Assembly: GCA_016183435.1 (NCBI GenBank)
Contig: JACPEQ010000042.1
Coordinates: forward strand, 1-42,183
DNA from: Chloroflexota bacterium
GTDB lineage: Bacteria; Chloroflexota; Limnocylindria; P2-11E
Length of the DNA stretch: 42,183 bases
Reading direction: 5' to 3'
The notes under the pieces were generated by a model, which had not been told where the DNA came from, did not search any database, and was given only the letters and a program-made list of their open reading frames with translations. A program made the translations under genes and the position numbers. Shown piece by piece: positions 3,027 to 39,620 of the stretch (position 1 is the stretch's first letter; each line of letters opens with the position of its first letter).

Positions 3027-4877
3027 ATGGCGAAGCAGCTCGGACGCAGACCGGACCACGGCGCGGAGGATCCGCTCCACCCGCTGCGGCATTCCGCCGC
3101 GCACGTGATGGCTGGAGCGGTCATGGACCTGTTCCCCGGGACGAAGCTCGGGATCGGTCCCGCGGTGAAGGACGGCTTCTACTACGACCTCGCCCTCCCG
3201 CGCGCGCTCGCGCCCGACGACCTGCCGCGCATCGAGGAGCGCATGCGCGAGGTCGTGAAGGCCAACGTGCCGTTCGAACGCAAGCAGATGTCCCGCGACG
3301 AAGGCATCCGCTTCTTCACGGAGCACGGGCAGGACTTCAAGGTCGACCTCATCCGGAGCTTCGACAGGGCCGAGGGCGCGGAGGACGACTCCGTCGGCAT
3401 CTACCAGCACGGGAGCTTCGTCGATCTCTGCAAGGGGCCGCACGTCCAGCGGACCGGCGACATCACGGCGTTCAAGCTCATGTCCATCGCGGGCGCGTAC
3501 TGGCGCGGCGACGAGACGAAGCCACAGCTGACGCGCATCTACGGCACGGTCTGGTCGTCCCAGAAGGATCTCGACGCCTACCTCGAGAAGCTGAAGGAGA
3601 TCGAGCGGCGCGACCACCGCGCGCTCGGGCGTGATCTCGAGCTGTTCCGCATCGACGACGAGCTCGGGAGCGGGCTCGTGCTGTGGCTACCCAACCTCTC
3701 GGTGGTACGAGAGGAGCTCGAGACGTGGTGGCGCAGGGTCCATCACGAGCGCGGCTACACGCTCGTCTACACGCCGCACATCGCTCACGAGAAGACGTAC
3801 CAGCGGTCGGGCCACCTGGAGAAGTACGGCGAGAACATGTACGGGCCGCTCGCGCTCGACGAGGGCACCCAGAACTTCTGGATCAAGCCCATGAACTGCC
3901 CGGGCCACATCAAGGTCTTCCAGTCGAAGGTCCGGTCCTACCGCGAGCTGCCGCTGCGCATCGGCGAGCTCGGGACGGTCTACCGCTACGAGCGCGGCGG
4001 CACGCTGCACGGCATGCAGCGCGTGCGCGGCTTCACGCAGGACGACAGCCACATCTTCTGCACGTGGCAGCAGGCGCAGGAGGAGATCGGGAAGGTCTTC
4101 GACCTGGCGATGGAGTTCATGCGGCTCTTCGGCTACTCGGACCCCGTCATCTACCTCTCCACGCGGCCCGAGCGGCGCCTCGGGACCGACGAGATGTGGG
4201 ACAGGGCGGAGAACGCGCTGCGCGAGGCCCTCGGCGTCCGCGAGGTGCCGTACAGGATCGACGAAGGCGGCGGCGTCTTCTACGCGCCGAAGATCGACGT
4301 CAAGGTCATGGACGCCATCGGACGCGAGTGGCAGGGCCCGACGATCCAGATCGACCTGAACCTGCCCGAGCGCTTCGACGTGACGTTCGTCAACGACAGG
4401 GGCGAGCGCGAGCGCGCGGTCATGGTCCACCGCGTCCTCTTCGGCAGCCTCGAGCGATCCGTCGCGGGGCTCATCGAGCACTACGCCGGCAACTTCCCGC
4501 TGTGGCTCGCGTGGGAACAGGTCGCGATCGTCCCGGTCCGGGAGGACGGCATGGAGTACGCGCGCCGTGTCGCGGCCGAGCTCCGCGCGCCTGGGATCCG
4601 CGTGCATCTCGATGAACCGCCGCTGGCGGACATGCGCGAGCGCATCCGCGAGGCACAGCACCGCCGCGCGGGCTACATCCTCGTCGTCGGCGCGAAGGAG
4701 GCGGAGGGCGAGACGGTGTCCGTGCGTCCGCGTGGCGCGGCGAAGGGCCAGGAGGAGCGCGGCGTGAAGCTCGCCGACTTCGTCACGCGCGTCGTGCGCG
4801 AGCGCGATGAGCAGGCCCTTCCCGGGGACTTCAAGCCCGGTGACGAGGGGCCGAGCGTGGCGGCGTCCCTGGAGTGA
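3027..4877 (+). CDS. thrS: Threonyl-tRNA synthetase
   Basis: 616 aa with HSAAH and CKGPH editing motifs, MNCPGH, RYERGGTLHGMQRVRGFTQDDSHIFC. Confidence 0.98.
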   Translation: MAKQLGRRPDHGAEDPLHPLRHSAAHVMAGAVMDLFPGTKLGIGPAVKDGFYYDLALPRALAPDDLPRIEERMREVVKANVPFERKQMSRDEGIRFFTEHGQDFKVDLIRSFDRAEGAEDDSVGIYQHGSFVDLCKGPHVQRTGDITAFKLMSIAGAYWRGDETKPQLTRIYGTVWSSQKDLDAYLEKLKEIERRDHRALGRDLELFRIDDELGSGLVLWLPNLSVVREELETWWRRVHHERGYTLVYTPHIAHEKTYQRSGHLEKYGENMYGPLALDEGTQNFWIKPMNCPGHIKVFQSKVRSYRELPLRIGELGTVYRYERGGTLHGMQRVRGFTQDDSHIFCTWQQAQEEIGKVFDLAMEFMRLFGYSDPVIYLSTRPERRLGTDEMWDRAENALREALGVREVPYRIDEGGGVFYAPKIDVKVMDAIGREWQGPTIQIDLNLPERFDVTFVNDRGERERAVMVHRVLFGSLERSVAGLIEHYAGNFPLWLAWEQVAIVPVREDGMEYARRVAAELRAPGIRVHLDEPPLADMRERIREAQHRRAGYILVVGAKEAEGETVSVRPRGAAKGQEERGVKLADFVTRVVRERDEQALPGDFKPGDEGPSVAASLE

Positions 4878-6254: not shown

Positions 6255-6296
6255 CGTCCCCCGGGCGCGCAGACCGCGGCGCCGCAGCGACGAGGT
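6255..6296. repeat. 42-bp dispersed repeat, copy 1 (second copy at 17186-17227)
   Basis: CGTCCCCCGGGCGCGCAGACCGcGGCGCCGCAGCGACGAGGT; 41/42 identical to copy 2. Confidence 0.85.
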
Positions 6297-6328
6297 GGAC
6301 CGCGTGCTTTCGCGCGCGCTGAGCGCCA

Positions 6329-15142: not shown

Positions 15143-17518
15143 ATGACCGGCGAACGGACGTTGCGGATCCTCGAGCTCACGGCGGTGCGTGAGCTGCTCG
15201 CGGAGCGCACCTCGTTCACGCCCGGGCGCGAGCTCGCGCTCGGCGTCGCTCCGGCCACCGACGTCGGTGACGCCGAGCGGCTGCAGGACGAGACGCAGGC
15301 CGCGCGAGACCTCGTGCGCGCCACGCCGTCAGCCGGCCTGCGCGGCGCGCGCGACATCCGCGACGCCCTCCAGCGCGCCCGGCTGGGCGGCATGCTCGAC
15401 CCCGAGCAGCTCGTGGCGGTCACCGCGACGGTGCGCGCCGCAGAGGCGTTGTTCGCGCACGTGCGGTCGTATCCACCGCTCGCCACACGCACCCGCTTCG
15501 CGCGTCCGCCGCTGGAGGTCGCGCAGGCCATCGAGCACGCGATCTCCCCCGAGGCCGAGGTGCTCGACCGCGCGAGCGTGGCCCTGGCGAGCGCGCGCGC
15601 CGAGCTGCGGTCCGCGCAGGCGCGGCTGCAGCAGCGGGTGGATGCTCTGCTGCGCTCCCCGGCGCTCGCGAAGCTCCTGCAGGAGCCGATCGTCACGCAG
15701 CGCGGCGGCCGCTACGTCGTGCCGGTGAAGGCCGAGAGCGCGTCGCTCGTGAAGGGCATCGTCCACGATCGCTCCGCGAGCGGCGCGACCGTGTTCATCG
15801 AGCCGCTCGACATCCTCGACGCGAACAACCGCATCCGCGAGGCGGAGCTCGCCGAGCGGACCGAGGTGGAGCGGGTGCTCGACGAGCTGTCGCGCCGCGT
15901 CGAGCGCGCCGCCGACGACGAGGAGGCGATGCTGCGCGCGCTCGCCGAGCTCGACCTCATCCTCGCGCGCGCCCAGCTCGCGGAGGTCTGGGATTGCACG
16001 CGTCCGGCGCTGAACGCGAGCGGGACGATCGACCTCATCCGGGCGCGCCACCCGCTGCTCGTCGAGCAGGTCGGGGACGCCATCGTGCCGATCGACGTCC
16101 GCCTCGGCGCTGACGTGACGGCGCTCGTCATCACCGGGCCGAACACCGGCGGCAAGACGGTCACCCTCCGCACGATCGGGTTGCTGACGCTCATGGCCGC
16201 GTGCGGCCTGCAGGTCCCTGCGCAGCGCGGGAGCGCGCTGCCGGTCGTGCGGCGCGTCTTCGCCGACATCGGGGACGAGCAGTCCATCCAGCAGTCGCTC
16301 TCGACGTTCTCGTCACACCTGCGCAACGTCGTGGCCACCCTCGACGAGGCGGAGCGGGGCGACCTGGCGCTCCTCGACGAGATCGGCGCGGGCACGGATC
16401 CGGACGAGGGGGCGGCGCTGGCGATGGCGGTGCTCGAGACCCTGCTCGAGCGCGGGGTCCTCGTCGCGGCGACGACGCACTACCCCGAGCTGAAGGCGTT
16501 CGCCCTGAACACGCCCGGGGTGATGAACGCCAGCGTCGAGTTCGACCCGGTGACGCTCCGGCCGACGTACCGCGTCCACCTCGGGCTGCCGGGCGCGTCG
16601 AACGCGTTCGCCATCGCGTCGCGCCTCGGCCTCTCCGCGTCGATCCTCGAGCGGGCGCAGACGCACCTGTCGGAGCTGCATCGCTCGCTCGAGCGGACGC
16701 TGCGCGAGGCCGAGCGAGCGCGGACGGATCTCGCGCAGCAGCTCGAGTCCGCGCGCATCACCACCGCCGACGCGCAGCGCGCGCTCGACGACGCGCGGCG
16801 CGAGGCCGACCGCATCGCCGAGGAAGCGCGCGCGCAGCTGCGGCGCGCCCGCGCCGAGGCCGATGACGTCCTGCTGCAGGCGCGCCGTGCTATCCGCCAG
16901 GCCGAGGAGGCCCGGGACCGCTCGTCGCGCCGTGACCTCGTCGAGGACGCCCGAGCGGCCCTCGCGGAGGCGGAGGCCGCGCGTGAAGCCCTCTCCTCGC
17001 AGGGGGCTCCGCCCCCCGCACCCCCGGGGCTGCTCCCGACCATCGGCTCAGCGGTCTTCGTCGAAGGGTTCAGCGATCCAGGGACCCTGATGGCGGTGGA
17101 CGAGAAGGGGATGGCGGAGGTCGCCGCCGGCGCGCTGCGGCTGCGCGTGTCGGCATCCGAGCTGCGCCTCGCTCCGGCCAGCGACCGTCCCCCGGGCGCG
17201 CAGACCGAGGCGCCGCAGCGACGAGGTCGAGCACCCGGACCGAGCGAGGGGCTTCGCCCCGAGCGAGGTCGGAATGAGGTGCCGCTCCAGCTCGACCTCC
17301 GCGGCGCCCGGGCGGAGGAGGCGCTGGCGGTCCTCGACCGCTATCTCAACGACGCGGCGGTCGCCGGCTACGAGCACGTTCGCATCGTCCACGGGAAGGG
17401 GACCGGGGCGCTGCGCGCGGCCGTCCGCGAAGCGCTCGGCCAGCACCCCCTCGTGCGCGAGGTCGCCACGGCCGGCCGCTCCGAAGGCGGCGACGGCGCG
17501 ACCATCGTCACGCTCTGA
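15143..17518 (+). CDS. mutS2: MutS2 family protein with C-terminal Smr domain
   Basis: VITGPNTGGKTVTLRTIGLLTLMA Walker A, LLDEIGAGTDPDEGAALA, C-terminal LDLRGARAEEALAVLDRYLNDA...HGKGTGALRAAV. Confidence 0.95.
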   Translation: MTGERTLRILELTAVRELLAERTSFTPGRELALGVAPATDVGDAERLQDETQAARDLVRATPSAGLRGARDIRDALQRARLGGMLDPEQLVAVTATVRAAEALFAHVRSYPPLATRTRFARPPLEVAQAIEHAISPEAEVLDRASVALASARAELRSAQARLQQRVDALLRSPALAKLLQEPIVTQRGGRYVVPVKAESASLVKGIVHDRSASGATVFIEPLDILDANNRIREAELAERTEVERVLDELSRRVERAADDEEAMLRALAELDLILARAQLAEVWDCTRPALNASGTIDLIRARHPLLVEQVGDAIVPIDVRLGADVTALVITGPNTGGKTVTLRTIGLLTLMAACGLQVPAQRGSALPVVRRVFADIGDEQSIQQSLSTFSSHLRNVVATLDEAERGDLALLDEIGAGTDPDEGAALAMAVLETLLERGVLVAATTHYPELKAFALNTPGVMNASVEFDPVTLRPTYRVHLGLPGASNAFAIASRLGLSASILERAQTHLSELHRSLERTLREAERARTDLAQQLESARITTADAQRALDDARREADRIAEEARAQLRRARAEADDVLLQARRAIRQAEEARDRSSRRDLVEDARAALAEAEAAREALSSQGAPPPAPPGLLPTIGSAVFVEGFSDPGTLMAVDEKGMAEVAAGALRLRVSASELRLAPASDRPPGAQTEAPQRRGRAPGPSEGLRPERGRNEVPLQLDLRGARAEEALAVLDRYLNDAAVAGYEHVRIVHGKGTGALRAAVREALGQHPLVREVATAGRSEGGDGATIVTL
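16991..17020. repeat. GC-rich hairpin repeat, inverted orientation, inside mutS2
   Basis: Reverse complement reads GCGGGGGGC-GGA-GCCCCCTGCGAGGAGAG, matching the arm and tail of the copy at 38917-38945. Confidence 0.65.
17186..17227. repeat. 42-bp dispersed repeat, copy 2, in-frame inside mutS2 linker
   Basis: CGTCCCCCGGGCGCGCAGACCGaGGCGCCGCAGCGACGAGGT. Confidence 0.85.
17241..17270. repeat. GC hairpin CGAGCGAGGGGC-TTC-GCCCCGAGCGAGGTC inside mutS2 linker
   Basis: GGGGC/GCCCC arms flanked by direct GAGCGAGG. Confidence 0.6.
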
Positions 17519-21834: not shown

Positions 21835-21838
21835 ACGG

Positions 21839-23149
21839 ATGGAAGGGGGCTCGCCCCCCGCGAAGAGCACCATCGTCGCCGTGGTGCCCTTCGGCGCCGT
21901 CGTCGAGGGCGGGGCCGACGAGGACACGGAGCGTCCCGGCCGCTGGGCGCGTCAGATCGCGCGGCGGCTGGTGGATCGGTTCGCCGGCGAAGAGACGCTC
22001 GAGGTCCGGCCCGTGATCCTCGTGGCGATGCCCGAGACCTCCTCGCAGGCGGGGTACCTCGTCTTCGGGTCGACGCCTGACGCGTCGCTCGCCGCGCGGT
22101 ACGCGCGCTCGCTCGGCGCCACCCATGCGTTGACCGGGACGTATCGCGAGAGCCCGACCGCGGGGAAGCTCGAGGCCGCGCTCGTTGACGCTGGCGGGCA
22201 CGTGGTCGCGACGTTCGCGCGCGACATCGCGGAGGGCGGGCTGCACCTGGTCGAGCCGGCGCTCGCGACGTGGCTGGCGTCGGCGCTCGGCGTGACGGCG
22301 GAGCATGACCTGGCCGCTCCCGTCACCGTCAACTCACAGGCCTACGAGACGCTGCTGGTCGGCATGGACGCCGAGGTCGACGCGACCCTGCTGCGCGAGA
22401 GCGATCCCAAGGGTGCCAGCGCGGCGATCGCGCGAGCGGCGGCCGCATACACGCTGGCAGCGCACGCCGACCCGGCGGCCGCCGTCGTCGAGGAGCGCAT
22501 CCTGCTGATGGCCGCCTCGGCGATCGAGAACGATCAGCAGGCGCTCGTGCTCGAGCCGCTCGAGACGCTGGCCGAGACGCGGCCGGCGTCGTGGCGCCTG
22601 CAATACATGCTCGGCGAGGTCCGCCGCACGAGCGGGGACCTGAACGGCGCGATCGTGGCCTTCGAGCATGCGGACGCGCTCCAGCCGCTGCGTCCCGGGG
22701 ACTCCCTCACGCTCGCTCAGCTCCAGATCGCGGCCGGAGCGCCCGCGGTCGCCGCGGCACGCCTGCGCCGGATCGTCCGCGGGGGCGCCGAGGCGCCGGT
22801 CGCCGCCACGGCCCGACGGCTGCTGCTCGGCGTGCGGCATCCCGAGCTCGAGAAGGACCTCGAGACCGCCGGCAAGATCGCCGTGGACGGCCAGCTCGCG
22901 CGTGCCGCCGAGGCCGAGGCGGCGTTCGACCGCGTGCTCGCTGCCGAGCCCGATCTCTGGGAGGCGCACTTCGGCCGCGGTCTGCTGGCGCGGCAGCGCG
23001 GCGACGCCGACGCCGCGCAGGCGTCGTTCCAGCGCGCGATCGATCTCAACCCCGCGGCGGCGGAGCTCGTCAAAGACCTGGGCACGGTCGGCGAGCGGGC
23101 AGGTCGAGCCCGGGGGCGGAAGGGGGCGAAGCCCCCCGCGAAGAACTAG
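21839..23149 (+). CDS. TPR-repeat protein, hypothetical
   Basis: ATG 21839 in ORF 21797..23149; TPR-like helices (AEAEAAFDRVLAAEPDLWEAHFGRGLLARQRGDADAAQASFQRAIDLNPAAAEL). Confidence 0.75.
   Translation: MEGGSPPAKSTIVAVVPFGAVVEGGADEDTERPGRWARQIARRLVDRFAGEETLEVRPVILVAMPETSSQAGYLVFGSTPDASLAARYARSLGATHALTGTYRESPTAGKLEAALVDAGGHVVATFARDIAEGGLHLVEPALATWLASALGVTAEHDLAAPVTVNSQAYETLLVGMDAEVDATLLRESDPKGASAAIARAAAAYTLAAHADPAAAVVEERILLMAASAIENDQQALVLEPLETLAETRPASWRLQYMLGEVRRTSGDLNGAIVAFEHADALQPLRPGDSLTLAQLQIAAGAPAVAAARLRRIVRGGAEAPVAATARRLLLGVRHPELEKDLETAGKIAVDGQLARAAEAEAAFDRVLAAEPDLWEAHFGRGLLARQRGDADAAQASFQRAIDLNPAAAELVKDLGTVGERAGRARGRKGAKPPAKN
21841..21866. repeat. GC hairpin repeat at 5' end of the TPR ORF
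   Basis: GGAAGGGGGC-TC-GCCCCCCGCGAAGA. Confidence 0.8.
23118..23144. repeat. GC hairpin repeat at 3' end of the TPR ORF (direct copy)
   Basis: GGAAGGGGGC-GAA-GCCCCCCGCGAAGA; arms identical to 21841-21866, loop differs. Confidence 0.8.
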
Positions 23150-31767: not shown

Positions 31768-31837
31768 CGACGAGCGGCTTTGCCGCGAGGAGCGAGTCGA
31801 CCAGCCCTGAGCGTGTCCCGGGCCGCAGGCCACGGGA
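31768..31837 (+). promoter_or_regulatory. Two consecutive hairpins between infB and rbfA
   Basis: GCGGC-TTT-GCCGC within GACGAGCGGCTTTGCCGCGAGGAGCGAG; then TCCCGGGCC-GCA-GGCC(a)CGGGA at 31816-31837. Confidence 0.5.
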
Positions 31838-38908: not shown

Positions 38909-38916
38909 TGGGGGGT

Positions 38917-38946
38917 GGAAGGGGGGCGCAGCCCCCCTGCGAGGGA
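38917..38946. repeat. GC hairpin repeat between deacetylase and methyltransferase
   Basis: GGAAGGGGGGC-GCA-GCCCCCCTGCGAGGGA. Confidence 0.75.
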
Positions 38947-38948
38947 TA

Positions 38949-39620
38949 GTGCCGGGCTCCACGACCACGGCGGCGCTCGAGCGAGCCGTGCACCGATACC
39001 GCGGCGCGCCCTTCTTCGCGCGGATGTTCGTGCACGGGCGCGCGTTCCTCGCCGACATGGCGCGCGTCGAGGAGTACGTGCCGCGTCACGGCTTCATCGT
39101 CGACCTGGGGTGCGGCCACGGGCTGTTCGCGAACCTGCTCGTGGAGTCGAGTCCCATGCGGCGGGTGCTCGGGCTGGATCACGACGACCGCAAGATCGGG
39201 GTCGCTCGCGGCACGGTCGCTGGCCGGGAGAACCTGCGGTTCGAGGTCGCCGACATCGTCTCGGTGCCGCCGCCGCGGTGCGACGCGATCACGATCGTCG
39301 ATGTCCTCTACCTGATGACCCCAGAGGACCAGGAGCGCGTCCTGAAGGGCGCGGCCGCCGCGCTGAACGAAGGCGCGCCGCTGATCGTCTGGACGCAGGA
39401 GGCGCGGATCGATCCGCGCTACGCGCTCACTTACCTGCAGGAGACCATCTCGGTCAGCCTCGGCTTCACGCGCGGGCGGCACCGGCGGTTCCACTTCCCG
39501 TCGCGGGAGACCGCGCTCGCGATGCTCGAGCGCGCGGGGTTCAGGGCGGAGGTGATCGAGATGCGCCGCCGGCCGTACACCGACGTGCTGTACCTGGCGC
39601 GCAGGGCACCGGCGGCCTAA
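38949..39620 (+). CDS. Class I SAM-dependent methyltransferase
   Basis: FIVDLGCGHGLFANLL, VLGLDHDDRKIGVAR, AITIVDVLYLM. Confidence 0.9.
   Translation: MPGSTTTAALERAVHRYRGAPFFARMFVHGRAFLADMARVEEYVPRHGFIVDLGCGHGLFANLLVESSPMRRVLGLDHDDRKIGVARGTVAGRENLRFEVADIVSVPPPRCDAITIVDVLYLMTPEDQERVLKGAAAALNEGAPLIVWTQEARIDPRYALTYLQETISVSLGFTRGRHRRFHFPSRETALAMLERAGFRAEVIEMRRRPYTDVLYLARRAPAA

Follow-up and report, generated by a model that had tools for sequence, protein, structure and literature searches.

RAYT transposases are the usual explanation for REPs, and the REPs that these enzymes drive usually form inverted pairs (REPIN/BIME). The GTAG superfamily includes REPs with degenerate GTRG or GTGG tags; its GTAG-1 and GTAG-2 families have an unpaired spacer and a short tail, short and long loops coexist, and copies lie between tandem or convergent genes and also within repair genes (Di Nocera et al., PMC3733652). 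CGTC REPs have no dedicated transposase (PMC3733652). Substrates that carry a GTGG tag remain cleavable by TnpA(REP), the cuts falling at shifted dinucleotides (PMC8266576).

The window analysed here is a whole 42,183-nt stretch of DNA from a Chloroflexota genome. A first-pass annotation had placed a GC hairpin repeat at 38917-38946, before a methyltransferase start, and the sequence GGAAGGGGGGCGCAGCCCCCCTGCGAGGGA was found exactly there. We conclude that the site probably belongs to a family of mobile, non-autonomous hairpins that resemble REPs; these have the architecture of the GTAG superfamily with GTGG as the tag, would have multiplied recently in this species and would have been moved by a single-strand (HUH-type) nuclease. 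We call the unit R1.

The target copy is a short-form R1 unit of the 6-G variant (G6-TGGAA-GGGGGGC-GCA-GCCCCCC-TGCGA) at 38910..38942 on the plus strand (covariance model E 8.4e-6). Only 40 nt separate a YdjC-like gene from the methyltransferase gene, and the unit takes up most of them; congeners lack this intergenic gap. Column statistics and a DNA fold delimit an unpaired tag, GTGG (38915..38918, +), which is a degenerate GTAG/GTRG as defined in PMC3733652. Just 3′ of it the fold gives the hairpin A-GGGGGGC / GCA / GCCCCCC-T (38920..38938, +; 8 bp counting the A-T pair; -9.7 kcal/mol). The tail (38939..38949, +) consists of GCGA and then a degenerate purine-rich stretch, according to column statistics, and runs up to a GTG start predicted by the gene finder at 38949.

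Since the genome is 70% GC, R1 hairpins might be chance GC-rich palindromes, and the bare hairpin with up to three mismatches is indeed near chance in the window (18 found, 13.2 expected; enrichment not significant). The core with its flank (GG..G4-6 N2-5 C4-6 YGCGA) occurs four times, versus a mean of 0.011 and a maximum of 1 in 1000 dinucleotide shuffles, so the signal is carried by the flanks. These cores, at 16997 (minus strand), 21841, 23118 and 38917, bear out the four-member family that had been proposed (16991 in reverse, 21841, 23118 and the target); the corresponding units are at 16997, 21836, 23112 and 38910. In the whole genome (2.22 Mb in 198 contigs, an assembly 90% complete) the pattern AGGGGGCNNNGCCCCC has 59 matches, counting both strands, versus 0 for the reversed-pattern control. 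A genome-wide profile search, which the first-pass annotation had called for, was run with a covariance model that spans the full unit and was built from 18 copies; it returned 67 copies at E<0.1. A short palindromic unit of about 31 nt with 67 dispersed model matches is what REPs in general look like (20-40 nt, many copies). Against these genome and shuffle counts, and a common 31-nt unit with sharp limits, the chance explanation is refuted and its probability is negligible.

Outside its own genome one exact R1 copy was found, in the Chloroflexi MAG contig VBGU01000090.1, the only such match in GTDB contigs; that contig is not close to loci from the window's family. Viral contigs gave no exact match, and an Rfam search gave no match at the R1 element. 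Elsewhere in the window, Rfam gave a sub-threshold T-box leader match (2798-2992; 51.8 bits against a gathering score of 93; E 2e-8), which stops just 5′ of a 616-aa ORF at 3027.

The unit, of about 31 nt, reads GGGGGTGGAA-[GGGGGC-GNA-GCCCCC]-TGCGA and is followed by a degenerate purine tail. Its limits are sharp in the column statistics of 46 parsed short copies: GGGGGTGGAA (columns -9 to -1) is conserved at 91-100% and TGCGA at 93-98%. Beyond TGCGA, purines prevail in a degenerate stretch as far as about +12, after which the columns are at background. Flanks outside the unit look random, while the unit itself is common to about 67 copies. The consensus first drawn up, with arms and tail described as kept, had its 5′ end cut off, the unit beginning 7 nt upstream of the start then given. 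Nor is the loop free, as had been supposed: it is GGA in 22 of the 46 copies, GAA in 6 and GCA in 5 (33 for these three), with AGA in 4 more. The G-run and the C-run, mostly of 4, 5 or 6 bases, covary in length (r=0.70), being equal in 36 of 46 copies versus a mean of 23.7 and a maximum of 34 under permutation. The DNA fold pairs A-GGGGGC with GCCCCC-T and leaves GTGG unpaired. This tag, conserved at 93-100% per column, gives R1 the unpaired tag of the GTAG superfamily in its degenerate GTRG form, not the canonical GTAG. All six frames of the consensus unit are free of stop codons.

Like GTAG-3 and GTAG-14, which have long self-complementary loops (PMC3733652), R1 comes in short- and long-loop forms within one genome. 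The long form (about 14 copies) holds a second conserved hairpin in its loop, GCCGGGnn-GCGGGGCC-GAnnA-GGCCCCGC-rnnrAAG; unlike the loops of GTAG-3 and GTAG-14, this inner hairpin is conserved, and it was seen in this species only and in none of the 24 relatives searched. We considered it as an independent repeat and rejected this, as it never stands alone and occurs only within the long form.

In roughly ten copies (e.g. L045, L049, L052) the R1 tail is followed, 6-8 nt further 3′, by a GGCGGC-TnT-GCCGCC-like hairpin, which may be a companion unit that forms a mosaic with R1. A hairpin akin to it, GCGGC-TTT-GCCGC, lies at about 31774-31786 of the window. This is what had been listed at 31768 as a looser relative of the family; it has neither tag nor tail, and the R1 model did not report it.

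R1 shares with GTAG-1 and GTAG-2 (Pseudomonas and others; PMC3733652) a GTRG-type tag, an unpaired spacer, a short GC-rich stem with a 2-3 nt loop and a short conserved 3′ tail, as well as a position between tandem or convergent genes with some copies in repair genes. It differs from them in its tag (GTGG, not GTAG), in its few copies (about 67), nearly all of which stand singly, head-head and tail-tail dimers being absent, and in that no RAYT was found in the genome or the family.

Gene context was taken from a purpose-written codon-usage gene finder, with orientation classes tallied by hand. Most copies mark junctions between genes, and many are within 0-5 nt of a stop codon. Tandem genes flank 29 copies in sense and 18 in antisense orientation, 10 copies lie between convergent and 2 between divergent genes, and 8 are deep inside genes. 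This is the placement of REPs (extragenic, tandem or convergent, seldom divergent), with both orientations present. In the window, one plus-strand copy (23112..23141) is at the 3′ end of a TPR gene, whose ORF (21839-23149) reads through it, and another (21836..21863) is 3′ of a tRNA-synthetase gene; both calls rest on the covariance model, the gene finder and congener comparison. In the latter copy the tag region is GATGG, and its ATG (21839) is the gene-finder start of the downstream TPR gene (MEGGSPPAK...), so that this copy was possibly recruited as a start site.

The same placement raises the question whether R1 hairpins are cis-acting RNA elements, either terminators without a T-run or 3′-end stabilisers, selected at gene ends. 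The GC hairpin is strong, most copies are directly 3′ of a stop codon, and convergent gaps (10) are used more than divergent ones (2), all of which such a role would explain. However, the tail TGCGARGA is purine-rich and has no T-run, unlike an intrinsic terminator, as the first-pass annotation had observed in separating the family from terminators. The non-palindromic flanks are as well conserved in antisense as in sense copies (18 and 29 in tandem pairs), eight copies are deep in genes, and orthologous junctions in congeners do without R1. We regard the RNA-element explanation as improbable.

Evidence for mobility comes from such empty sites. The orthologous sites of the 38910, 23112 and 21836 copies lack the R1 unit in congeners, as do those of seven further copies on two other contigs. 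Congeners are about 70-87% identical around the compared sites, and most insertion boundaries are blurred; the cleanest empty site is in an Fpg-like gene, with an exact 36-nt in-frame difference versus two congeners. With one model and threshold, R1 has 61 matches in its own genome and 0-2 per genome in congeners, which makes the expansion recent. Other genera of the family have 0-13 copies per genome, mostly with 4-base G-runs (shorter stems), and none was found in the other sampled families of the class. R1 thus looks like a recent expansion upon an older family background.

Target-site duplication left no signal: the two flanks of a copy resemble each other no more than do flanks taken from different copies (permutation, p=0.22). 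A candidate duplication, CGAGGAA at both sides of the Fpg copy, is accounted for by the tail consensus. A MITE moved by a DDE enzyme was also rejected, given this negative test and ends (GGGGG.. and ..TGCGA) that are not inverted repeats. R1 is well supported as a REP-like mobile hairpin; copy number, fixed flanks, empty congener sites, junction placement, in-frame copies and the lack of T-runs all agree with the dispersed REP/RPE-like family that had been proposed.

The hosts of the deep copies are MutS2, an Fpg-like glycosylase, a radical SAM protein, TsaD, MoeA, a HisA/F-like protein, an Fe-S CCG protein and a TPR protein. Copies in-frame within protein genes, as in RPEs, are those of the Fpg-like, MutS2, TsaD, MoeA and HisA/F genes. 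The Fpg-like glycosylase gene has one in-frame copy inside and another at its 3′ end (L065:9652-9701 and L065:8927-8976). The MutS2 copy (16997..17025, minus strand; residues about 619-629, frame open; covariance model, core pattern and MutS2 comparison) falls in a P/A-rich linker between the MutS_V and MSSS domains. In relatives this linker is 3-4 residues shorter, so the MutS2 copy is not a simple insertion; the comparison suggests that it replaced or enlarged a pre-existing linker.

Like Rickettsia palindromic elements (RPE) and CGTC REPs (PMC3733652), R1 thus occurs in-frame in housekeeping genes and has no known dedicated transposase. It differs from them in tag and stem, and in that most of its copies are extragenic. 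The resemblance to RPEs is one of behaviour and not a demonstrated relation of sequence, and R1 is not classed as an RPE.

MutS2 also contains a second, separate repeat, R2, at 17185..17276 (plus strand; residues about 681-712, before the Smr domain), identified from profile matches, compensatory changes and MutS2 comparison. To this family belongs the sequence at 17241, earlier listed as a looser relative of the hairpin repeat. R2 is a CGTC-headed two-hairpin repeat of about 90 nt, CGTCCCCCGGGCGCGCAGACCGAGGCG...GAGGTCGAGCACCCGGG plus the second hairpin, with compensatory changes in 6 of 21 consensus pairs. Starting with CGTCCCC, it is nearer than R1 to the RPE/CGTC group, but longer. In its own genome it has 40 matches, probably an undercount since 36 candidates were scored, and four congeners have 9-24 each. 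The MutS2 copy is in-frame and adds about 13 residues; a partial copy is found at 6255-6299 of the window.

A RAYT had been suggested as the mobiliser. The search for a mobiliser covered Y1_Tnp (PF01797), the RAYT fold family. The domain was detected in E. coli and other controls, and no match was found in the own genome (90% complete as assembled), even at E<=1, nor was a RAYT or Y1_Tnp found in the other 27 of the 28 family genomes searched or in those sampled from its order and class. The copy list has no inverted pairs within 600 nt, as REPINs or BIMEs would give; the only close pair is head-to-tail, 88 nt apart. With REPtrons and REPINs (a REP with its TnpA-REP/RAYT; PMC8266576, PMC3116915) R1 shares a hairpin with a 5′ tetranucleotide as the likely recognition signal, and dispersed non-autonomous units. 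Unlike in them, no inverted REP pairs and no RAYT/Y1 gene flanked by the repeats were found. R1 fits the GTAG superfamily by anatomy and placement, with no demonstrable REPtron, REPIN or BIME. Against our main reading stand the missing RAYT/Y1, the missing inverted pairs and a MutS2 copy that is not clean; movement was not seen directly.

An alternative is spread by a route other than an HUH transposase, for instance through reverse transcription, through template switching where forks have stalled, or by an unrecognised enzyme responsible for R2 as well. Such a route would accommodate the failure to find Y1/RAYT in the family genomes searched, the abundance in one genome of two unrelated hairpin families, both within MutS2, and arm lengths that remain symmetrical. 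No positive evidence for such machinery came from a search that covered Y1_Tnp, and TnpA(REP) enzymes do make use of a GTGG tag together with a hairpin. We hold it to be unlikely. Also unlikely is a broader proposition, namely that REP-like units can be spread by machinery not yet known, or simply by replication errors that hairpins provoke. It would draw on the multiplication of R1 and R2 in a lineage with no detectable Y1/RAYT.

For R1 itself we infer, from its anatomy and the absence of target-site duplications, a single-strand HUH mechanism. The unit, single-stranded at a replication fork or as an excised intermediate, would fold to form the GC hairpin. This hairpin, with its unpaired GTGG tag, would be recognised by a single-strand (HUH-type) nuclease, and the unit would be pasted into new sites with the target not duplicated. 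Insertions would survive where they do little harm, namely in co-directional or convergent gaps, at gene ends, and in-frame in tolerant parts of proteins, where they may be tolerated because the consensus is free of stop codons. The putative nuclease, for which the Y1_Tnp search found no candidate gene, may be encoded in the missing 10% or so of the assembly, may have been lost, or may belong to a type that is not recognised. If R1 affects the regulation of neighbouring genes, that effect would be secondary.

A species-specific, recent burst of GTGG-tagged singletons, with no RAYT detectable in the family, offers a test of whether REPs need a RAYT in order to spread. R1 also extends the REP map to a little-studied lineage, and its copies in MutS2 and Fpg exemplify hairpin elements that lie in-frame in repair genes.
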